NCBI GenBank assembly: GCA_949841045.1
Contig: CATKXS010000001.1
Span: 1 to 60,716, forward strand
DNA length: 60,716 nt
Direction of reading: 5' to 3'
Origin: an uncultured Clostridia bacterium
GTDB taxonomy: Bacteria > Bacillota > Clostridia > Christensenellales > UBA1242
Below the pieces are notes generated by a model. That model was not told the DNA's origin. It saw only the letters and a list, made by a program, of their open reading frames with translations, and ran no database searches. Each line of letters starts with the position of its first letter. Within the stretch, counting starts at the first letter, position 1. Both the position numbers and the translations under genes were made by a program. Below are positions 6,134-21,582 of this stretch, piece by piece.

Positions 6134-9100
6134 ATGAAAAAAAAGTTTGTAGTTGTTTTCATGCTTGTATTGTTTTCTGGTTTAGTTATGACTGCCTGCA
6201 ACACGAAGTCAAGTGTTAGCGGGAATTTTAAGCAGAATTTATATAATTTATCTCTAGGAAGTGAACTTGATTTTAGCCAAGAGTTAAACCTTAAAGGTAT
6301 AGAATTTGACAAGGTGAAAATCTATTCTTCAAATGAGGCTATATTAAAATCTACAAATGAATATAGATTTCAAGCGTTATCTAGTGGAAAGGTTTTTGTA
6401 TTTGCTGAGGCTAATGGCAAAACGATAGCTAGGACAACTATAAATGTTAAATATAGACTTGGAGAGGTACAAAATATAAAAGTCGATGATGAGGGCTTAG
6501 TAACTTGGGACGCAAGTCGAGTAGTACTTTTGGGTGGTGAGCTTGTATTTGCTGACAATTATCTTGTTACAACAGTTAATGATAATGGGCAAAGAAGGGA
6601 GTTTGAAACTCAAGAAACTTCATTCTCGCTCGAGAAAGAAGATTGGTATGATGTGATAATTATAGCAACTTCAAATAATGAACTCATTGACAATTCGCCT
6701 TCAACTCGAGTTTATCTAAATTATGGATATGTTGCAAGACCAACAAACTTAAGATTTACATCTAACGAGTTTGCTCAAAGTGGAACTTTAACTTGGAATA
6801 GAATTAGTGGTGCAGAATTTGCAATTTACATAAATGGAATTAAAATGGAAGAAGGTCTTAGAGAAAATAAATTTGATTTTGATTACTCTTCTTATGAAGA
6901 TTCCGTTAGGGTGACAATCGAAGCGAATGATGTATTAGGCAATAAGAAAGCTTCGCAAACTGAGATTACGCTTAAAATATTAAAAACTTCCAATCTTTAC
7001 TATAGTTACGATGGACAGGGGATTCTTAATTGGGATGGGGATAGTGATGCTCTTTCTTACACTATAAAACTTTTAAACCTTGATACTCAAGAAAGTGTTT
7101 ATTACAATGTAAAAAATGACAATCAAACTTTCCTTGAAGGCGTCAGTGAAGGAAATTATGAGGCAAGCATTGTTTTAAATGGTGGAACAAGCGAGAAAGG
7201 TCTATTTATTTCTAGCAAAGAATCTAATATAACCCAAATCTATAAACTTCAAGAGCCAAAACTTGAAATAGATTTTGATGAGAAAAAAGCATATTTAGAA
7301 TTTGATAAGGATATGCAAGTAAAAAATTTCTTGATTAAAATTGATGACGAGGCAAATCTTTATAGTATAAAGGAAGGGAATTTAATCGAACTTGATTTGG
7401 CAGGTTTAGGAGTTGGGCTTCATAATATCAGCGTTAATGCCGTTGCAAAAAACAGTGACGGGGAAATTGAAGTGGATAGCACGGCTATAACGACAAACTT
7501 TATCATGTCAAATACTTGGTCTTTTGATTTTTATAAACTTGAAGAGCTAGGTGAAGTTTTACACTTTATTGATGACGAATATTCAATGTTTAGTTTTGAC
7601 AGAATTGAAAATGCAACAGATTATATAATCTATGTTGGTGACACGCAAATTTCTGATATTCAGACGATTATAGAGGGAAGACGCGTATATTTAAAAGCTC
7701 GTCTCAGTGACTATGCTCCACAAGACAATCTTTATGATGTAAGGGTTGAAGCTATAGCAAAACGAGATGGAGAGTTAAGTTCTCTTGTTTCAAGCAGACA
7801 AAAAGAGCTTATTGTTTTAAATCCTGCTATAGCAAAACTTGAGCAAAATAACGGCGAGTTTGAATGGCTAGTCCAAGCCGGTTTTACATATTCTTATGCA
7901 GTTTATAAAGCTGATAAAAATTATAATATCCTTTCTCAAACTCCAGTTCTAGCTGGTTTGACAACTCAAGGCAAACTCCCAAGCGTGCTTTCAGAAGGTT
8001 ATTATGTTGTTAGAGTCACAACTCTTTCAAATGATGAAAATATCAACCTTAACTCTGATTTTTATAATAAAAACAATGTTTTATCAGCAAATTTGAAAGT
8101 TACAAAAGTTTTGGAGTCGCCAAAAGCTCAATTCGTTGAATTAAACAGCGGTTATAAACTTTTGATTTATGGTGTTGATAATGGCGGAGAATATGAAGTT
8201 TATGTTGATGGCGTAAAAGACGGAGGAATCGTTCTTAGCGAAAAAATTGAAGGGCCGATTGAGTACATAATAAAAAATCCTCTTAAAGAAGTTAAAATTC
8301 ATTCTGTGGAAGTTGTTGCAAAAGGTGGGAATTTGTTTGACGGAGAAGTTTATCTTCCTTCTGACGCGTTTATTTTGAATCTTGAAAGACTTGCGCTTGT
8401 AGACGAAAAAGTTACTTGCTTATTCTCAAATTCAAATGAACTTCTAGGTGAACAAATAGAAGTTAAAGAAATTGCAGGTGCAAAGAGCGTTGAATTTTTA
8501 TTAAATCACACAAGTATTCAAAATTCTGGCTTCAAGCTTGATATGTCAGACAAATTTAAGTTTGGAAGCGACTTTTTGATAGAAATGAGATATATTGGTG
8601 ATGAAAGCGAAATAGAAAACCATTATTATATTTCAAGTGAACTTAAAGCGGTTGAATTCGCTCGTGTGAGCGCTCCAAGTCAATTAAAATATGAGGACGG
8701 AATTCTTTCTTGGGCAAATGGAGATGTGCTTGGCGAAAAATTGTATATTTCGCTAACCATGAAATCTAATCAAAATCAAGAATACTATCATAGATTTTTC
8801 ACAAATGGGGTGGTAAGTGAACTTGACCTTCAATCTTACATCGATGAGGCAAGACGTGATGCCGAATTTGATACAGCGTTTAGAAATGCTATTGCAATCG
8901 CTATTGAAATAATTTCTTATCAAAATAGTGCAGGAGAAGAAAACGAAGAAGGTTTGTCAGACATATATTATATTCCATCTTTCGTTGGCTCTACAAGTTT
9001 AGGCGAAAAGAGCTTGAATATCGTTCAGCTTGAAGAGGTAGAATTAAAGTTTGATGAAGAGAATTATAACTTCAATTGGGATTATGAAATTGAAGGTACA

Positions 9101-12100
9101 ATATTTGAAATTTATGTAGACGGCAAAAAGGTTTATCAAACTGATGAAAAAAAGGTAAACGTAAACGAGCTTAACATAGATTTTCTCCAAAGACGAGAGG
9201 TGAGGGCTAGAGCAATTCATTCAAATCATCTCAAATCTGATTTGTCTGAGCCAATTTATCTAAAACAAATTGAAACGCCAGAGAGACTTACAATTGAAAA
9301 TAGTATAGTCATGATTAATCTTTCTTCTGACACGTCTTACATTGATAGAGTCCTTGTAAATGGAAGCGTGGCAAATGTAAATTATATCAAAGGTGGAAAT
9401 ATCATAACCTTTGATTTGGAAAATTTTGAGACGAATGAATTCAATATTATATTTAAGTCAGTTACAGGTGGGGTAAACACATATTACCTTGATAGTAGAC
9501 AAATAAATTTAACGCTTATAAATCTTAATGCAGTAGAATTTAATAGCACAATTGATGGCGATGAGTTATCATGGGATAAAGTGGCTTCTGATATTAATGG
9601 AAACAACATTGACCCAATATTATATCAAATTTCAGTAAAAAATAATGAAAAAACATATATTTTAGGTTATAGAAGTAAAAATAACATCAAATTAGACGCT
9701 CTTGAAAATGAAATTAAAGCATCGCTTTCTGGCAATGTTGAACTTAGTTTGAGAGCAAAAGTAGACGGAAGTTATACACTCTCGCTTAATGAAGAAAATA
9801 TTGTTGGCTACTATGGACAGACAATAGAGTCTACAAATGAAACAAAAAAACTTGAAAAAGTAGAGAATATAACTTCGCGTGTTGTTGACAGTACTCGATA
9901 TGCGACCTTACTTGACAATAAAATGAATGCAACTCTTGATATTACTTTTGAGGATATTTGGGAAAGTAGTGAAGTTAAGTTTATATTCACTTTGAAGGGT
10001 GAAAGCGAAAGAATATTTGAGATTAGTGCTTTAGGTGATTATGAAAATTATTCATTTGCAAAACAAGAGGGGAATTATCTCCTTACTATTAAAAATAATC
10101 TTTTAAAACTATTCAGCGAAGAAGAATTTGATTTTGAAATATTTGTTGCAAGTGATAGGCTTATAAGCAGTGACAAGAGTCTTATAAAGCTTCAAAGATT
10201 TACAAGGCTTGGTGGCGGTGAGTTGTCACAAGACGGAACACTTACTATTTTAGACGAGCAAAATGCAAGTTACCTCGTTGAAGTAATGATAGAAAATACA
10301 AAATATGAAAGAATTCTTTCTGGAGAAAAAACTCTTTCACTCATCACTTCTGACCTTATGGGCGGGAAATATGATGATTACACAATCAAAATAATTGCCT
10401 TTGACGAAAATGGTTTAGTTCTCCCAAGTCCTACCATTTTTGCGCTTACTGGTCACAAAATGAAGGGAATAAGCAGTGTTACAATAGATGATAATGGCAA
10501 TGTCAATATGTCCCTTTATGTTGATAATTATAGTAGTATTGTCTTTGTCGCAAAACGCGGAGATGAAGAAGTAGATTTCATAGGCGTGGAAAGTGAAGAC
10601 GAACCAAATGTGTTCTACATTTCAATGATTGACCTTATAAGCCTCTTTGAGAAAGGGCAAAATGTAATAGGAGAGCAGAATATAAGTCTTGCTGTTAAGA
10701 AAGCGGGCTCTATAATGTCTGATTTCGTAGATATTTCCTTCACCTTTGCAAGAGATGCTGAGGTGGAAATTAAGAGGACTGGAACTTTTGATGAAGATTA
10801 TCTTATTCTTCCAGTGCTTGGTGATGATGTTAAATCTTTATCGCTTAGAATTAAAATCAACGCAAACTTTGGCGAGTCTGACCAGCGAATATATTACTTT
10901 TATGCAAATGATGTGCTAGGCTACTGGGCAGAGCTGGCAGATGGCACAAAAGGCAGATTTGTTAAAGAAATTGATAGTGAAAGTGATTTTATTTATACAA
11001 GGGCTTTTGGAATAAAGATAAACGACCTCCTTTCAACCTTGGAAATGGGTGACGTAACGATGACAATATCTCGTGTTGGCTTAAAGGAAGGGCTATATCA
11101 ATATTCATCGGCAACTTTTGATTTTTATAAACTTTGTACATTCCTTACTGACGAGGATAACAAACAAATTTCAATTTCAAACGATATTCTTTCATTCAAT
11201 TGGTTACAACTTGACATGGAGACAGAGCGAGAAATTGAGCCTTCTTCATACATTGTTTATGTTAAAGATGAGGAAGGAATACTAAAACATCAAATTACAA
11301 CTTATGCACCTGGTCTTGACCTTAAGGGCTTAGACATTGTGCCTGGGCAAATTTATTACATTTCTGTAAAAGCTTTAAGCTTCGATGAAAGGGTGATTGC
11401 TTCAGATGTCAGTGATAAAATCACGGTATTAAAGTATACATCTCCAACCCCATTAGAGGTGAAAGATGGCCTCATTCAAATGCGAGAGGAAGATTTCAAA
11501 AAGACAGAATTCTTCAAGGATATAGTTGACTACTTTGGTCAAGAAAATCCAGCAACTCAGTATCATATGGCTGTTTGGAACAAGACTTACTCTGCACCTT
11601 TCTTCTTCAGTCCAGACAACTTTGACCTATATAATCTTATTTTAAACTTTACAAAACTTGATAATGGCGTGATAACAAGCACGAAATATTCAACTGAAAT
11701 CAAGGGATATTTGCTTTTCCCTGATATTGAAATAGAAGTAAAAAATTCTGAGTTCGTTGGTCTTGGCGACAGGCTGTCATATATTTATCTGCTTCAAGTC
11801 TATAGCGAGCGAAAACTGAAAACAAGTTCTACTCAGGAAGCTGTAGTTATCAGAAATATGATTGACAGACTTGTCAGCACTTGTCGTGGAATTGGAGATA
11901 ACACACTTCTGTTTGATGACAAAGGTAGAGCTATTCCAGCAGGCGAGTATAGCTTAAGTATGGCTCAAAAAGCTAATGAAAGTAATCTAACTTCATTAAA
12001 CTCTGAAAGCATAAAAATCTTCTTGGCAACTGCACCAGAATTGACATTAGAAGGGAATGGTGACTACTATGCCCAGATAAATCCTGTTATGACAAGGCTT

Positions 12101-15100
12101 TATACTGGTGAAACTTTTGAAACAATCTCAGCTTTAACATATAAACTTCAACTGAGAAATGCAAATGACGAAGTTGGAATTTACTCAAATTCAGTGATAG
12201 AACTTTTGGCACAATATGACAGTGTAAACGGCAAATGGTATCTCTTGTATGGCGACAATGAACTTGACGTCATTGAGAATGTCGCTATGCCAAGTGGAAT
12301 TGACGGTTTTAAGATAAACATGACAAACCTCAGATGGGCTTTAAGCGAAATTAGTGAGGGACTTATTAAGACAAACCATTCTTATCGCGTTGACATTTTC
12401 GCTTTGGGTGGCGATGAGGTCGTAGCCAATGGTAAGAGCGGTATATTCTATCTCAATTATCTTGATTTGCCTAGTGACCATATTCACTTTATTGATGGAA
12501 AATTCATTGTTGAAAACAACTCCACTGAAGCAGAACAAAACGACATTTTGGTTCGCTATGTACTTGCAGGACAGTCGCAACAGACAACAAGAGCGCCTTT
12601 CGTAGGTGGACGTGCTGAAGTAAAACTCGACAGAGCGGGAAGATACTCAAGTGTTATATTATCTCTCAGCGGTTCGGTTACTCGAAGCTCTATGAGCGTT
12701 GAAAGCTCATCATATCTTATTGAAAACATCTATAAACTTTCAGCTCCAGAATTGAGTGTTGAGGCAAATAATATTTCAATTCGTTGCAATGACAGAAATA
12801 TCACAGGTGGAATTAAATTCTATCTCGGTAATGATGTGAGTCTTGACCTTAATTATGTAGGTGAAGATAAGGGTTATTATTTTGAAAGCGATTTTTCTCA
12901 ATTATCAAGTCTAGAATATATCGCAGGCGCGCTTTTAGATGATACGATTAAAGTAAAATATCCTTCAGAACTTGAAGCAAGTACTTTTACAGCATATCTT
13001 TGTGGAAACAATGGTCAATTTACTCTTGAAAAATGTGAAAAAGATGAGGCCGATTATAGACTTGTATTCCAGTCACTTAATAACTTATATCCTATTATTT
13101 CATCTGATACGAGCATACTTAATGCTAAGATGCTTCCAGAAATCAATTACTTTAATGTGGAAAATGGAAACATAAAGATTTATAATGATAAAGTTTATGA
13201 CAGAATTACTGATAGAAATGGTAGCGAAGCTCAAATAGTTTATGATGTTAAAATTGGTTATTACACTGAAGACAATGTGGAAGATGGAAAATATATTTTC
13301 AATTTTGAAGAAGATATTTACCTTGAAAACTTGGCAGAAATAGAAGAATATCTTGACGGCAAGCTACTTAATGAGCAGTTTAGTTATTTTACTATTTCAG
13401 TTACTGCCGTTAGCGGTGTTCAAGTTGGCGAAGACGATACTTACAATTTTATCAGTACAAATGGAAATTATTTCTCTTGTGCTGGGCTTAAGTATGACGA
13501 TGGCAGTTATGTTTTAAAAAGCTTAACAAATGCGACGCAATACATTTATCAACGCACGCAAAAGGCGTTTGTTCAAAGTGTGTCATCGGTTATCAGAAAT
13601 GGACAGATTAATTTCATCCTTGACAGAGAGTCTATCTATTATGCTGATGAAGGCGAGACGCTTGACCAGTCAACGGCAAAACGTATTTCAATCTATGCTG
13701 AGTACACAGCTGGTGGTGAAACTAAATTTGAAAGACTTGAAGGAACATACAACTTCTCTACCAGCACAAGTGCAGGTGAGGGAAATTATCTCTTTGTAAG
13801 CTTTATTCCTGATGACGGACAGCTCAATGACACAATTAAAGCGTTTACAGTTTACATTTATGCGTATGGCCATGACAGCAAAGGCAACAATGCTATCATC
13901 TCATCTCCGCTTGTAGTAAGCGATATTTACAAACTTCCAAATGTTGACGAATATTACGAGATTGTTCTTAAAGATGGAAAGACAGCAATAGATTTTACAA
14001 ATTATTTCTCTGAAGTCTCAATACTGAGTAATAGAGATTGCTATAAAATAAATGTAAAATATATCTCTCAAAGTGGCGAGGAATATTCAATTGATATTTC
14101 AAGCACAACGCAAAATAAGATATTTGAAATTCCTGAAAATGCAATAAGTGTTACTATTCAGGCTCAAGACGGACAGAGTCTTACACAAATTGACCCAAAG
14201 AGACTTTTCTTTAGTGATAGTAAAGTGCTTGAGATTAAGACGACTTCAGTTGAAGAACTTGAAATAAGTTGGGATAATATTGAGAAACGTTTTGTTTGGA
14301 CTTTTGGTAATGACAAAGATGACGAATATGAATATTATGTAAGCCTTTCTATTGCAGGAAATGAAGAGCGTGAATTTGTAAATGACAATTTCTATTGTCC
14401 AAGAAATAGAGGAAGAATTCTTTCAGGCGCCTTCAAAATCAGAGCAAGACTAAAGGGTGATTATGATAATATGCTCTTTGTTTATAGCGAAGAAAAGGCA
14501 TATGTAAGCGATGAGATGATTGAATACAATCTCTTCTCTGGCGGAAATGGAAGTGAAAATAATCCATATATCATAGCAAATATTGATGACTTTAAAAACA
14601 TGGCACTTAGAAATACAAATGATTTCTACTTTAGGCTTAATAGAAATCTTGATATTGATTTAAGTGAACTCGCAAGAGAAGAAGTCATGTTTGATGAGTT
14701 TAATGCTCACTTAGACGGTGGCGGTTATAGTCTTTCAGTTACTTTAAACAGCGTTTATTCACTTAAAGATAAGTTTGTGAGAACCCTTATTGGTTATAAC
14801 AAAGAACAGCTTACATTTACTTCTGCAAGTGCAATCTTTTACACCCTTTCAAGCGGTGCTTCAGTAAGTAATATGAATATCTACTATTCACTTGAACTTT
14901 CAGATATTGATACAATAAGTATTATGGTTGCACCAATTTGTGTTTACAACTATGGCAGTATTGAAAATGTTAATATTAGACAATTTGATATTGCTGTTAA
15001 TGGAACAGGTACAAGCAATGATATATTTGTAGCAGGACTTGCGTGCGTAAACTATGGGAATATAAGTTTTTGTACAAACTATAGCGAATTTGATTATAGC

Positions 15101-15709
15101 ATGCAACAAAGACTCGAAATGACCTTTGGTTATGCTGGAATTACACTTTTCAATCAAAGTGAGGGCGGTTACACTGGAAACATTACAAACTGCTTCAATA
15201 AGGGAGAGAAGGGCATTACTTCAGCAACAAACAATGTTGTTTACCTAAGCGGTATCGCTCTTCAAAATAGCGGAACAATTTCAATGTGTGGAAATGATGG
15301 CAATATGAATCTTGCAGTTAAAAATACCGAACTTAGAGTTAGCGGTTATTATGCTGGAATTGCAATCGCAAATATAAGCGGAACGCTCGAATATCTTTAT
15401 AACAACGGTTTGTTTACTTGCAAATCTAGTCCATTTAGAGGGACATTTAGATATGCCGGTATCGCTATTCAGTTGAGGGGCGGAAGCATTTCCAATCTCG
15501 TCGAGACAAAAGCTCAACCTTTGATTAGAAATTGCGAAGGTGCATTCCTTGATGGTGGAAACAATTATGTTGCGTCTGGTTCTGGCACAGACCCAAATGT
15601 ATCTTCTACTATTGAAATTACCGGAAACTTTACACTTGAAGGCAGAAATGGCTATAAGCTTATTGTGACAGGCGGTGAAGATGGGTATAATGCAAGAATT
15701 GCAAAATAA
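6134..15709 (+). CDS. Giant multidomain surface lipoprotein, 3191 aa
   Basis: A secreted, lipid-anchored protein. The N-terminus is a lipoprotein signal (MKKKF, hydrophobic core, then LVMTAC, with C22 the expected lipidation site). Next comes a BIG2-like module (residues ~25-110), followed by a very long series of fibronectin-III/Ig-like beta modules. Several boundaries are marked by Y-K-L (near 368, 465, 1664, 2199, 2599), and modules often start with a strand like LSWD or FNWDYE. Residues ~2800-2880 carry the GGNGSENNPYIIANIDDFKN signature with NLDIDL and HLDGGGYSLSV, as in bacterial surface proteins with GLUG-type repeats. The rest (NYGSIENVNI, NYGNISFCTN, NSGTISMCGN) looks like a right-handed beta-helix. 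No sortase motif, no catalytic motif and very few cysteines. Likely an adhesin or polysaccharide-binding stalk; the ligand is unknown. The frame is intact over 9.6 kb. Confidence 0.88.
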   Translation: MKKKFVVVFMLVLFSGLVMTACNTKSSVSGNFKQNLYNLSLGSELDFSQELNLKGIEFDKVKIYSSNEAILKSTNEYRFQALSSGKVFVFAEANGKTIARTTINVKYRLGEVQNIKVDDEGLVTWDASRVVLLGGELVFADNYLVTTVNDNGQRREFETQETSFSLEKEDWYDVIIIATSNNELIDNSPSTRVYLNYGYVARPTNLRFTSNEFAQSGTLTWNRISGAEFAIYINGIKMEEGLRENKFDFDYSSYEDSVRVTIEANDVLGNKKASQTEITLKILKTSNLYYSYDGQGILNWDGDSDALSYTIKLLNLDTQESVYYNVKNDNQTFLEGVSEGNYEASIVLNGGTSEKGLFISSKESNITQIYKLQEPKLEIDFDEKKAYLEFDKDMQVKNFLIKIDDEANLYSIKEGNLIELDLAGLGVGLHNISVNAVAKNSDGEIEVDSTAITTNFIMSNTWSFDFYKLEELGEVLHFIDDEYSMFSFDRIENATDYIIYVGDTQISDIQTIIEGRRVYLKARLSDYAPQDNLYDVRVEAIAKRDGELSSLVSSRQKELIVLNPAIAKLEQNNGEFEWLVQAGFTYSYAVYKADKNYNILSQTPVLAGLTTQGKLPSVLSEGYYVVRVTTLSNDENINLNSDFYNKNNVLSANLKVTKVLESPKAQFVELNSGYKLLIYGVDNGGEYEVYVDGVKDGGIVLSEKIEGPIEYIIKNPLKEVKIHSVEVVAKGGNLFDGEVYLPSDAFILNLERLALVDEKVTCLFSNSNELLGEQIEVKEIAGAKSVEFLLNHTSIQNSGFKLDMSDKFKFGSDFLIEMRYIGDESEIENHYYISSELKAVEFARVSAPSQLKYEDGILSWANGDVLGEKLYISLTMKSNQNQEYYHRFFTNGVVSELDLQSYIDEARRDAEFDTAFRNAIAIAIEIISYQNSAGEENEEGLSDIYYIPSFVGSTSLGEKSLNIVQLEEVELKFDEENYNFNWDYEIEGTIFEIYVDGKKVYQTDEKKVNVNELNIDFLQRREVRARAIHSNHLKSDLSEPIYLKQIETPERLTIENSIVMINLSSDTSYIDRVLVNGSVANVNYIKGGNIITFDLENFETNEFNIIFKSVTGGVNTYYLDSRQINLTLINLNAVEFNSTIDGDELSWDKVASDINGNNIDPILYQISVKNNEKTYILGYRSKNNIKLDALENEIKASLSGNVELSLRAKVDGSYTLSLNEENIVGYYGQTIESTNETKKLEKVENITSRVVDSTRYATLLDNKMNATLDITFEDIWESSEVKFIFTLKGESERIFEISALGDYENYSFAKQEGNYLLTIKNNLLKLFSEEEFDFEIFVASDRLISSDKSLIKLQRFTRLGGGELSQDGTLTILDEQNASYLVEVMIENTKYERILSGEKTLSLITSDLMGGKYDDYTIKIIAFDENGLVLPSPTIFALTGHKMKGISSVTIDDNGNVNMSLYVDNYSSIVFVAKRGDEEVDFIGVESEDEPNVFYISMIDLISLFEKGQNVIGEQNISLAVKKAGSIMSDFVDISFTFARDAEVEIKRTGTFDEDYLILPVLGDDVKSLSLRIKINANFGESDQRIYYFYANDVLGYWAELADGTKGRFVKEIDSESDFIYTRAFGIKINDLLSTLEMGDVTMTISRVGLKEGLYQYSSATFDFYKLCTFLTDEDNKQISISNDILSFNWLQLDMETEREIEPSSYIVYVKDEEGILKHQITTYAPGLDLKGLDIVPGQIYYISVKALSFDERVIASDVSDKITVLKYTSPTPLEVKDGLIQMREEDFKKTEFFKDIVDYFGQENPATQYHMAVWNKTYSAPFFFSPDNFDLYNLILNFTKLDNGVITSTKYSTEIKGYLLFPDIEIEVKNSEFVGLGDRLSYIYLLQVYSERKLKTSSTQEAVVIRNMIDRLVSTCRGIGDNTLLFDDKGRAIPAGEYSLSMAQKANESNLTSLNSESIKIFLATAPELTLEGNGDYYAQINPVMTRLYTGETFETISALTYKLQLRNANDEVGIYSNSVIELLAQYDSVNGKWYLLYGDNELDVIENVAMPSGIDGFKINMTNLRWALSEISEGLIKTNHSYRVDIFALGGDEVVANGKSGIFYLNYLDLPSDHIHFIDGKFIVENNSTEAEQNDILVRYVLAGQSQQTTRAPFVGGRAEVKLDRAGRYSSVILSLSGSVTRSSMSVESSSYLIENIYKLSAPELSVEANNISIRCNDRNITGGIKFYLGNDVSLDLNYVGEDKGYYFESDFSQLSSLEYIAGALLDDTIKVKYPSELEASTFTAYLCGNNGQFTLEKCEKDEADYRLVFQSLNNLYPIISSDTSILNAKMLPEINYFNVENGNIKIYNDKVYDRITDRNGSEAQIVYDVKIGYYTEDNVEDGKYIFNFEEDIYLENLAEIEEYLDGKLLNEQFSYFTISVTAVSGVQVGEDDTYNFISTNGNYFSCAGLKYDDGSYVLKSLTNATQYIYQRTQKAFVQSVSSVIRNGQINFILDRESIYYADEGETLDQSTAKRISIYAEYTAGGETKFERLEGTYNFSTSTSAGEGNYLFVSFIPDDGQLNDTIKAFTVYIYAYGHDSKGNNAIISSPLVVSDIYKLPNVDEYYEIVLKDGKTAIDFTNYFSEVSILSNRDCYKINVKYISQSGEEYSIDISSTTQNKIFEIPENAISVTIQAQDGQSLTQIDPKRLFFSDSKVLEIKTTSVEELEISWDNIEKRFVWTFGNDKDDEYEYYVSLSIAGNEEREFVNDNFYCPRNRGRILSGAFKIRARLKGDYDNMLFVYSEEKAYVSDEMIEYNLFSGGNGSENNPYIIANIDDFKNMALRNTNDFYFRLNRNLDIDLSELAREEVMFDEFNAHLDGGGYSLSVTLNSVYSLKDKFVRTLIGYNKEQLTFTSASAIFYTLSSGASVSNMNIYYSLELSDIDTISIMVAPICVYNYGSIENVNIRQFDIAVNGTGTSNDIFVAGLACVNYGNISFCTNYSEFDYSMQQRLEMTFGYAGITLFNQSEGGYTGNITNCFNKGEKGITSATNNVVYLSGIALQNSGTISMCGNDGNMNLAVKNTELRVSGYYAGIAIANISGTLEYLYNNGLFTCKSSPFRGTFRYAGIAIQLRGGSISNLVETKAQPLIRNCEGAFLDGGNNYVASGSGTDPNVSSTIEITGNFTLEGRNGYKLIVTGGEDGYNARIAK

Positions 15710-19279: not shown

Positions 19280-19303
19280 TTTTTAAGATAAAAGGTGACA
19301 AAA

Positions 19304-20680
19304 ATGAAAAAGAATGTTTTAAAAGTTATGGCAACCATTTTCTCGGTTGCATTTCTAATGGCAGGTTGTGCAACCGTTTCAAATGTTAAAATCGGTGGCA
19401 AAGATGCCAATTTCAAAGAGCCAGTGTATAATCAAGGACAAGTTCTTGTCATAGGCGATTATCTCTATTATGGAAATGGATACACAGCTTCTAATAGCGA
19501 TGGTTTTAATTATAACAGTGCAGCTAAATCAGGTTATTTGGCAAGAATTGACCTTTCAAAAGGTTTGACTTTCGCTGATGACGTGAAAGACGATGTTAAA
19601 GCTTATACAAGTCCAAAAAATATTGAAAAAGTGGTTAAAGATAGACTTATTGGCTATCAAGCACAAGACATGTTTGCTCTCGGTGAATATATTTATTTCT
19701 CATCTCCAAACACGCATAAAACCACAGAACTTCAAAACGACTATACTCAAGTCTCTCTTTATAGAGTTAAGTTTAATGGTGACGGCCTTAAAGAACTTGT
19801 TAAAAACAGTGCTTTCAAACAAGGTGAAGGCTCTACAATAACAATGCAAAAAGGAAGCGATAACAACTATTATTATATTATCGTTGAACCAGGCGAAAAT
19901 AACACATTTACTATCAAATCACTTAAAATAGGAAACAAAATTGGCAAGATTAAAACAATTGCAGAAGAGGTTACTTCATATGCAATTGCCGATAGTGATT
20001 CAGTTCAAAAAAATATTATCTTTACGACTGCTTCAGAACAGGCTACTGCAACAACGGCAGTTAAGTCAGTTGATTATGCAACTGGTGAGGTGACAGATCT
20101 CGATAACGGCGTTACTGGTTCTACTGCAAAAATGCTTGACAGAGCTGGAGACATTGTATTCTATTCTTACTCAAATCCAAACAATAAAGTTGAAGAGGTT
20201 TATTATAAAGACCTTTCGCTCGGTGGAAGTTATTTTAACACTTCTATGACTGCTTTCTATAATGCAACTTCGATAAGTGACGTTAAACGCGTTGGCGAGG
20301 GCTATGTATTTAAAACTGCCGGTGGCGCGCTTATGTATAAAGAATTAAACCGCATAGGCGATTCTAATCGTCTTATGAAAGATGATGAATTTACAGATAT
20401 TTTATTTGTAAATGGTGACGTAGTTTATACCTCAACAGACAAGACTATTAAAAGAGTTGACACTGTAAGTAAAAATGTTGAGGTGATTGTAACTCTTGAA
20501 GATACCAGCTTAATTTCAGGTCAATGTGGTTATGATGGTGAATATATTTACTTCTATTCAAACCTTCCAACATCTCTTTTTGAAAATGAAGAGGGCGAAA
20601 CGAATGACGCAGATTCAAACTATTATTTATTCAGAACTGACATGTTTGGCAACTGCCAAATAGTCGGAAAAAGAGTTTAA
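19304..20680 (+). CDS. Lipoprotein with beta-propeller-like repeats, 458 aa
   Basis: The signal ends in LMAGC, so the mature protein is lipid-anchored outside the membrane. Repeated strands of the kind GDYLYYGNGY, GEYIYFSSPN, GDIVFYSYSN, NGDVVYTSTD and GEYIYFYSN, each followed by a RIDL- or RVD-type strand, suggest a six- or seven-bladed beta-propeller as in DUF5050-type proteins. The start is placed at ATG 19304 because the upstream in-frame GTG (19295) is part of the ribosome-binding site AAAGGTG. Own promoter and terminator. Ligand or partner unknown. Confidence 0.82.
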   Translation: MKKNVLKVMATIFSVAFLMAGCATVSNVKIGGKDANFKEPVYNQGQVLVIGDYLYYGNGYTASNSDGFNYNSAAKSGYLARIDLSKGLTFADDVKDDVKAYTSPKNIEKVVKDRLIGYQAQDMFALGEYIYFSSPNTHKTTELQNDYTQVSLYRVKFNGDGLKELVKNSAFKQGEGSTITMQKGSDNNYYYIIVEPGENNTFTIKSLKIGNKIGKIKTIAEEVTSYAIADSDSVQKNIIFTTASEQATATTAVKSVDYATGEVTDLDNGVTGSTAKMLDRAGDIVFYSYSNPNNKVEEVYYKDLSLGGSYFNTSMTAFYNATSISDVKRVGEGYVFKTAGGALMYKELNRIGDSNRLMKDDEFTDILFVNGDVVYTSTDKTIKRVDTVSKNVEVIVTLEDTSLISGQCGYDGEYIYFYSNLPTSLFENEEGETNDADSNYYLFRTDMFGNCQIVGKRV

Positions 20681-20724
20681 AATATAGCAAAGAAGAGCGT
20701 TCTACAAATTCCGACAAATAAAGA

Positions 20725-20765
20725 CATAACTCGCAAAAAATTCACGCGAGTTATGCTTTTTTTTG
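20725..20765 (+). terminator. Terminator
   Basis: CATAACTCGC (20725-20734) / GCGAGTTATG (20746-20755) followed by a C and a T run. Confidence 0.92.
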
Positions 20766-20832: not shown

Positions 20833-21582
20833 ATGGAAACAAAAAATAAAATCAAAATATATTTAGCTGATTCAGAACAAGACGAACTTGACAAAATGAA
20901 CGCATACTTTAGTGAGAACGAAGATTTTGAGGTTGTAGGCATGGCGACTGACGGCATGACTGTTGCAAGTGACGTGATTAGATTGAAACCTGAATTTTTG
21001 GTTACTGAAGTTTTACTTTCTGGTGCTGATGGCTTTAAAGTTATGGAATCTTTAAAGAGGGAAATGAGTGCGAGAATGCCTAAAATTATTTTTGTTTCAA
21101 ATCTTTCACATGCTGGTTTTATTTCAAAAGCAATGAAAGATGGTGCAAGTTATTTTATGGTTAAGCCTGTATCTTATGATAATCTTGTAGAACGAATAAA
21201 AGACCTTGTAAATCCTCTTCTTAGTGCTGATAGTGACAAAGCTCTTGATGAAAAGATTGCAAATATCTTCATTAGCATTGGAATCCCTGCACATATTAAA
21301 GGTTATCAATTCCTTCGTGAAGCAGTCAAACTTGCTGTTGTTGACCCAGACATAATTGCTTCAATTACAAAGAGACTTTATCCAACTATTGCTGAGAAAT
21401 TTTCAACAAGTTCTTCAAAGGTAGAACGTGGAATGCGTCATGCTATTGAGGTTGCTTGGAATAGGGGAAAGATTGAAAACATCAACAGTCTTTTCGGACT
21501 TCAAATCTATGGAGCAAATGACAAGCCAACCAATGGTGAACTTATTGCGTTAATAGCAGACAAGATGATTATGGAAGGGTAA
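20833..21582 (+). CDS. spo0A: Spo0A-family response regulator lacking the phosphoacceptor Asp
   Basis: The C-terminal half (residues ~140-249) is unmistakably the Spo0A DNA-binding domain: ISIGIPAHIKGYQFLREAV, YPTIAEKFSTSSSKVERGMR, HAIEVAWNRG, KPTNGELIALIADK. The N-terminal half is a receiver domain, but the residue aligned with the phosphoacceptor Asp (LVLDIIMP in Bacillus) is Glu59 in LVTEVLLS; the codon is GAA at 21007-21009. The following Pro is Ser. Of the acidic pair only D13 aligns (LADSEQ). S89 and K111 (YFMVKP), which complete the active site, are kept. The family controls entry into sporulation and related transitions after phosphorelay input. This protein may be constitutively active or respond differently. 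AAGGAG precedes the ATG. Confidence 0.92.
   Translation: METKNKIKIYLADSEQDELDKMNAYFSENEDFEVVGMATDGMTVASDVIRLKPEFLVTEVLLSGADGFKVMESLKREMSARMPKIIFVSNLSHAGFISKAMKDGASYFMVKPVSYDNLVERIKDLVNPLLSADSDKALDEKIANIFISIGIPAHIKGYQFLREAVKLAVVDPDIIASITKRLYPTIAEKFSTSSSKVERGMRHAIEVAWNRGKIENINSLFGLQIYGANDKPTNGELIALIADKMIMEG

Follow-up and report, generated by a model that had tools for sequence, protein, structure and literature searches.

The locus described here raises the question of how a spore former might use Spo0A when the residue at which the protein should be phosphorylated is a glutamate, and whether such a protein still serves sporulation at all. The DNA analysed, which we refer to as the window, is a stretch of 60,716 bases (GCA_949841045.1, contig CATKXS010000001.1, positions 1-60,716) from an uncultured Clostridia bacterium (Christensenellales; UBA1242), and the genome to which it belongs is 1.16 Mb in 34 contigs and 95.4% complete. 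The open reading frame at 20833..21582 (+ strand, 249 aa) matched the NCBIfam equivalog for Spo0A, TIGR02875, over residues 5-247 at 227 bits relative to a cut-off of 200. Its product consists of a receiver domain (residues 9-123, 20857..21201, + strand; PF00072, 49.3 bits, cut-off 30.2) and a Spo0A_C DNA-binding domain (residues 142-244, 21256..21564, + strand; PF08769, 127.9 bits, cut-off 25), the recognition helix of which is almost invariant in the rows read, from the near group through other families. With a full-length equivalog match and a Spo0A_C domain carrying the conserved recognition helix, the protein is, judged by its sequence, a Spo0A orthologue.

To place the phosphoacceptor, we aligned the receiver with that of PDB chain 9phz_E, which bears the title "Stage 0 sporulation protein A" and which we take to be the B. 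subtilis protein; this alignment is gap-free across the site. Glu59 (codon GAA, 21007..21009, + strand) falls on the phosphorylated Asp of 9phz_E. The acidic metal pair is incomplete, with Asp13 on the first acid and Ser14 on the second (codons 20869..20874, + strand), and the conserved Pro is replaced by Ser63 (21019..21021, + strand). The original prediction had described a Glu encoded by GAA at the acceptor, a change of the Pro to Ser and an acid pair reduced to D13, and every one of these details was borne out. We also looked for another Asp that might act as acceptor, as the prediction had proposed, and the gap-free alignment to 9phz_E ruled this out; the nearest candidate, Asp66, belongs to a separate conserved DG motif. 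The Ser/Thr and Lys of a response regulator pocket are both retained, as Ser89 (21097..21099, + strand), the conserved Thr/Ser switch residue, and as Lys111 (21163..21165, + strand), the conserved pocket lysine. The roles of these pocket residues are well established for receivers, in which the second acid of the pair is a metal ligand and Glu is a poor phosphoacceptor. A PF00072 match over the cut-off combined with Glu59 and the lack of an acceptor Asp places the domain among the pseudo-receivers on sequence criteria and, on the same criteria, Glu59 Spo0A is not a phosphorylation-controlled response regulator.

That codon 59 represents a sequencing error can be rejected, because near relatives have Glu too. 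Alignment of the receiver across relatives, the check that had been suggested for such an error, gave Glu in 107 and Asp in 4 of 111 full-length Spo0A rows; these rows come mostly from the near group and from genera g20, g13 and g27, with the query in twice and some genomes in duplicate. The codons at this site, without the query, are GAA in 74 rows, GAG in 32, GAT in 3 and GAC in 1. The near group itself comprises 98 rows, most of them from contigs without a genus code that were assigned by an identity of ~64% or more, and among its 84 distinct rows Glu occupies position 59 in 83 and Asp in 1, the Asp being that of one near relative (rows L017 and L100). Across the same 84 rows site 59, with an entropy of 0.09 bits, ranks 22nd among the 120 sites of the receiver, within a receiver whose mean entropy is 1.27 bits vs. 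0.18 bits for Spo0A_C. Residues D13, D66, G67, Y107 and K111 are invariant (84 of 84), position 89 is always Ser (73 rows) or Thr (11 rows), and position 14, the site of the lost acid, ranks 110 of 120 in conservation at 2.79 bits. The fixation of a Glu pocket inside a fast-evolving receiver suggests a function for the Glu.

The search for kinases that the original prediction had proposed found no histidine kinase in the source genome (no HisKA match by profile search; genome 95% complete), and the one PF00072 match over the cut-off in that genome is Spo0A itself. A hidden histidine kinase was also considered and rejected, as all four proteins with HATPase_c matches are other enzymes (GyrB, a second GyrB/ParE-type subunit, MutL, and SpoIIAB). 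The 5% gap in the source genome is an unlikely cause of the absence, since no HisKA was found in 13 other sampled genomes of the genus that are 97-100% complete. Across the window's family HisKA was not found in 39 of 43 sampled genomes, the source genome included, and was present in the other four (G012, G016, G026, and G029); in other families, examined as a comparison, it was present in seven of seven sampled genomes, with 1 to 29 in each. Exactly one receiver over the cut-off was found in 37 of the 43 family genomes, again including the source, and its location identifies it as Spo0A in all 37. Among the remaining six, G002 has two Spo0A copies, the four genomes with HisKA have extra receivers and G058 has none over the cut-off.

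The HATPase_c matches of four relatives (G059, G058, G180, and G131) were inspected, while the others, among the matches listed, were judged by length only. In G059, G058 and G180 they are large GHKL ATPases, encoded together with DNA-methyltransferase-like genes in cassettes (L328:767-5072, L330:497-4798, and L331:1441-5488) that consist of the ATPase, a smaller protein and what is, by eye, a cytosine-methyltransferase-like protein. The smaller protein is REC-like, judged in L328 from a PF00072 match below threshold and in L330 by eye, and these defence-like cassettes resemble a kinase and regulator pair in a crude search. The match in G131, a close relative, is a HATPase_c protein of 116 aa (L329:2222-2572) that resembles a histidine kinase remnant.

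The loss of classical phosphorylation control of Spo0A is well supported, because the acceptor Asp is fixed as Glu, the second metal acid is lost and neither a kinase nor another receiver was found, and on the same evidence the independence from a phosphorelay that had been proposed earlier has gained strong support. Loss of the kinase does not in itself force a change to Glu, since most of the kinase-less genera in the window's family retain the acceptor Asp.

Across the order, TIGR02875 matched in all 297 genomes drawn, 230 of them over the cut-off. The sampling of acceptor states was uneven, 30 loci being the best-scoring, which favour canonical Spo0A, and further loci having been picked among weak-scoring families, so that row counts per family are not frequencies. 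Asp was present in all rows read from families f2, f3, f4, f6, f8, f11, f12, f14, f15, f16, f17, f20, f21, f23, f25, f26, and f27, although in f8 the acid pair is lost despite the acceptor Asp. Glu occurs in genera g1, g20, g6, and g29 of the window's family and, outside it, in f9 and f24 (one row read each), f10 (1 of 3 rows), f13 (1 of 8) and f18 (2 of 7). The acceptor is Ser in four of the eight f13 rows and Asn in one f13 row and in g7, and the receiver of f22 is degraded to a varying degree, with Asp kept in some rows. In g42, g4, and g15 Spo0A is a protein of 173-205 aa without a receiver match, a state read in two genomes of g42 and in one each of g4 and g15, both of these being 83-90% complete. 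The receiver-less Spo0A of g42 differs in its N-terminal segment, which is about 60 residues long, and in L332 and L333 (G058 and G079) is, by eye, convergent beside a CTP-synthase-like gene.

A tree of Spo0A was computed from 114 chosen rows (11 of the near group) with column 59 removed; it omits f22, g4, g15, and g42, in which the receiver is missing or degraded, and g26, from which no full-length Spo0A was recovered. This tree, in which 42 of 111 inner branches are open, L289 and L296 are long and some f18 N-termini are poorly aligned, requires a minimum of 11 switches between Glu and other states at site 59, which we read as about 10 gains and one reversal in the order. Genus g1 (support 99) and genus g20 (with the Asp-bearing g11, support 97) appear to represent separate gains of Glu, and one g1 row has gone back to Asp. 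Of the 14 acceptor losses inferred, about 10 led to Glu, for which the binomial P is about 0.0005 against an expected share of 26%; the counts of gains and the P value are approximate because branch support is uneven. The expected 26% is the share of Glu among Asp-less receivers given in PMC4395418.

Whether the protein still serves sporulation depends on what else the genome has kept. The source genome carries spoIIAA-spoIIAB-sigF, sigK and sigH, and also, by eye, spoIIGA-sigE-sigG after an ftsZ-like gene, SpoIIGA being assigned only by its position before sigE. SigG and SpoIIAB pass an equivalog cut-off, and SigF, SigE, SigK, SigH, and SpoIIAA are best matches below theirs; SigF and SigE, the two for which a search had been proposed, are hence both present as best matches. 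SpoIIE was matched over its length in the source genome (3-764 of 764) and in 21 of 22 genomes searched, under its curated cut-off in all 22, the genome with no match being G019 of the Glu-bearing genus g20. SpoIVA was over the cut-off in 54 of 55 genomes, which span all 42 genera drawn, and partial in the other one. The GPR protease was over the cut-off in the source genome and gave matches in 13 of the 14 g1 genomes sampled, the source included. The genome thus encodes a sporulation cascade, though alpha/beta SASPs (PF00269) were found in none of 24 genomes searched, in a search that matched the B. subtilis control. GPR, which degrades SASPs, was matched in the source genome and in 17 of the 23 other genomes of this SASP-less set. 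A non-sporulating genome was considered, a reading that the SpoIVA, SpoIIE and sigma factor searches do not support. The earlier suggestion that Spo0A is reused outside sporulation is not favoured either, as the sporulation sigmas, SpoIIAA/AB, SpoIIE, and SpoIVA are kept, even though no alpha/beta SASPs were found, and that genomes of 1 Mb still carry these genes speaks for a functional programme. PMC3533761, a paper that mapped spore formers, puts the lower genome limit of free-living spore formers near 2.2-2.3 Mb, Candidatus Arthromitus excepted, and because the 55 sampled genomes of this family span 0.8-1.4 Mb, a family of that size with this sporulation set is unusual.

Tandem 0A boxes with a 10-bp period, TTCTACAA-AT-TCCGACAA, were identified by a scan of the DNA upstream of spo0A (20700..20717, + strand), at a position kept in relatives. 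They are the sole site of their form in the window when one mismatch is allowed, relative to 0.12 expected; a site of this kind turned up in 12 of 100 shuffles too. Single perfect 8-mer boxes are not enriched in the window (2 vs. 2.57 expected). The scan used the known 0A box consensus, and the 10-bp spacing had been noticed in the source sequence before the spacing scan. In the near group a tandem score of at least 13 of 16 was reached in 45 of 98 upstream regions vs. 0.5 expected from dinucleotide shuffles, and a perfect 7-mer box was present in 52 of the 98 vs. 3.65 expected, counts that are not independent because the loci are related (some regions are duplicates, and the proteins include 84 distinct ones). 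The spacing scan of these regions gave 45 at 10 bp and 47 at 20 bp, with no more than 6 at each of the remaining spacings between 8 and 23 bp, and the place and phase of the boxes are conserved within the group. In other genera (35 of 40 fetched loci, the rest being without an N-terminal match or 200 bp upstream) there were tandems in 8 of 35 regions vs. 0.1 expected and perfect boxes in 22 of 35 vs. 0.4, with a blunt spacing peak (6 at 9 bp, 9 at 10 bp, and 5 at 22 bp). The g20, g13, and g27 set (11 of 12 loci, limited in the same way) had three tandems in 11 regions vs. 0.15 expected and no excess of perfect boxes (1 vs. 0.4). At spoIIE the upstream tandem scored 14 in the source genome and 13 in a single relative, the others reaching at most 12, and no tandem above chance was seen upstream of spoIIAA (7 genomes) or spoIIGA (4 genomes). 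Because 0A boxes sit upstream of spo0A, control of Spo0A by its amount alone is plausible.

A terminator-like hairpin with a T run lies at 20725-20764, between the 0A boxes and spo0A, although a stricter scan reports none there; in the near group, 63 of 98 regions have such a hairpin in the 220 bp upstream of the gene, vs. 13 of 98 shuffled ones. Directly upstream of spo0A is a lipoprotein gene (19295..20680, + strand), and the order yqeY, phosphoesterase, lipoprotein, spo0A was seen in several loci among the matches listed. The window also has a lipoprotein-like ORF of 3191 aa at 6134-15709. The source genome has in addition two stand-alone Spo0A_C proteins, one of 136 aa (L228:8857-9267, - strand, contig C15; PF08769, 76 bits) and one of 146 aa (L229:4649-5089, + strand, contig C11; PF08769, 48 bits). 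A perfect TGTCGAA precedes the start of the gene on C11 by about 70-80 bp, and by eye this gene adjoins a LexA-like gene. More than one Spo0A match was found in many relatives.

Because the acceptor has been exchanged and no kinase to phosphorylate it was found, the decision to form a spore would have to be made in another way. We lean towards the explanation that this is a phosphorylation-independent, probably constitutively competent Spo0A that still serves sporulation and is set by its amount or by another input. Whereas the loss of the classical input can be read from the protein and the genomes, we infer the on-state, the dosage control and the new input, as follows. In this reading the Spo0A of a genome-reduced gut clostridium has become detached from two-component signalling. 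Lys111 and Ser89 would hold Glu59, which together with other changes of the receiver would mimic the phosphorylated state, and newly made protein would already be competent for tandem binding to 0A boxes. The sporulation decision may then be set by the amount of Spo0A, through feedback on its own promoter and SigH or, alternatively, by an input upstream of Spo0A transcription or stability. In the reviews PMC12632262 and PMC4395418, Glu is described as the commonest replacement in Asp-less receivers and as able to mimic phosphorylation, and some Asp-less regulators as being controlled by their availability. The Glu may have to be joined by further changes in the receiver, such as Ser63, position 14 and His93, because in B. 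subtilis Spo0A the change from Asp to Glu alone is reported to be insufficient for constitutive activity (PMC4395418, citing Green et al. 1991).

The rival explanations are partly compatible with this one, and not all of them are mutually exclusive. The main rival to a constitutively competent, level-controlled Spo0A is a pseudo-receiver gated by a ligand or partner, in which a small molecule or a protein bound by the pocket D13-E59-S89-K111 would switch Spo0A on or off. We consider it unlikely, even though the receiver is kept in most genera read, the pocket residues are invariant in the near group and tblastn placed the lipoprotein gene directly before spo0A in 61 of 120 loci, many of which have short flanks. 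Known pseudo-receivers can, moreover, be regulated directly, according to PMC12632262. The receiver-less Spo0A proteins of g42, g4, and g15 count against such gating, since their occurrence in three genera indicates that input through the receiver is dispensable in this family. Those same losses would fit a relaxed drift, in which the acceptor stopped mattering after the kinase was lost and Glu is one accident among many; the Ser and Asn acceptors and lost acid pairs elsewhere in the order fit it too, as does the single reappearance of Asp in the near group. Drift would not readily account for a Glu that is almost fixed in the near group and encoded by both of its codons while many receiver sites vary, or for the bias of acceptor losses towards Glu over the 26% expected, and we regard it as quite improbable.

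Decay of the sporulation programme, or its service in some other developmental process in which Spo0A is reused, appears distinctly unlikely to us. It could explain the missing alpha/beta SASPs, the scores of SpoIIE, SigF, SigE, SigK, SigH, and SpoIIAA under their equivalog cut-offs, and genomes so far below the boundary quoted from PMC3533761 (Candidatus Arthromitus excepted); against this stand SpoIVA in nearly every genome, SigE, SigF, SigG, SigK, and SigH with SpoIIAA/AB in the source genome, and the persistence of GPR in g1. Finally, Glu59 or another residue might still be phosphorylated, by a small phosphodonor or another type of kinase, and the retained pocket Lys and Ser/Thr as well as the Asp kept in most kinase-less genera could be taken that way. 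It is nevertheless very improbable for the protein studied here, given how poorly Glu serves as an acceptor and the loss of the second acid of the metal site. Returning to the level-controlled Spo0A that we prefer, and taking the order as a whole, we see an even chance that these gut Clostridia have repeatedly made of Spo0A, originally a switch worked by phosphorylation, a one-component switch set by its level, with kinase-free and possibly hard-wired sporulation near 1 Mb as the end point.

In Bacilli and Clostridia, the key switch into sporulation is described as the phosphorylation of Spo0A (PMC3533761; PMC11210211). A clade in which the programme persists without the phosphate site or, in the sampled genomes, a kinase would show that the decision is possible without phosphosignalling, and the natural series from Asp through Glu and Ser/Asn to no receiver offers a test of what the receiver is for and of pseudo-receiver control. 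The finding also bears on the prediction of spore formation from MAGs, for which the presence of spo0A and genome size have been used as markers (PMC11536998). Among the matches listed from open-access titles and the starts of abstracts there was no report of a natural Spo0A without its acceptor, which is weak evidence of absence.

The source Spo0A shares with the Spo0A of Bacillus and Clostridium (TIGR02875) its domain order, a near-identical recognition helix and 0A boxes near its own gene, and differs from it in having neither the acceptor Asp nor the second acid, in a genome where no kinase was found. The Sad and Sof alleles of B. subtilis Spo0A are laboratory changes that free the protein from the phosphorelay; these are selected mutants in one species, whereas Glu59 Spo0A is a natural, clade-wide state. 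Epulopiscium resembles the source organism in being a gut clostridium with reshaped sporulation, in which the Spo0A kinases known from C. acetobutylicum were not found, yet its Spo0A, unlike the one studied here, keeps the conserved phospho-acceptor residues (PMC3416734). Among Asp-less receivers, ChxR of Chlamydia likewise has Glu at the acceptor site, and its dimers, DNA binding and activation are reported to need no phosphorylation (PMC4395418; PMC12632262; PMC3960148); ChxR is, however, a regulator of the OmpR/PhoB type, whereas here the protein is Spo0A, in a genome in which no two-component system was found. PMC4125116 describes BldM and WhiI of Streptomyces as orphan atypical response regulators critical in differentiation, WhiI up to mature spores. 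They differ from the source protein in their unrelated output family, in the kind of spore made and in not being Spo0A, but they are, in another lineage, its nearest precedent in function.
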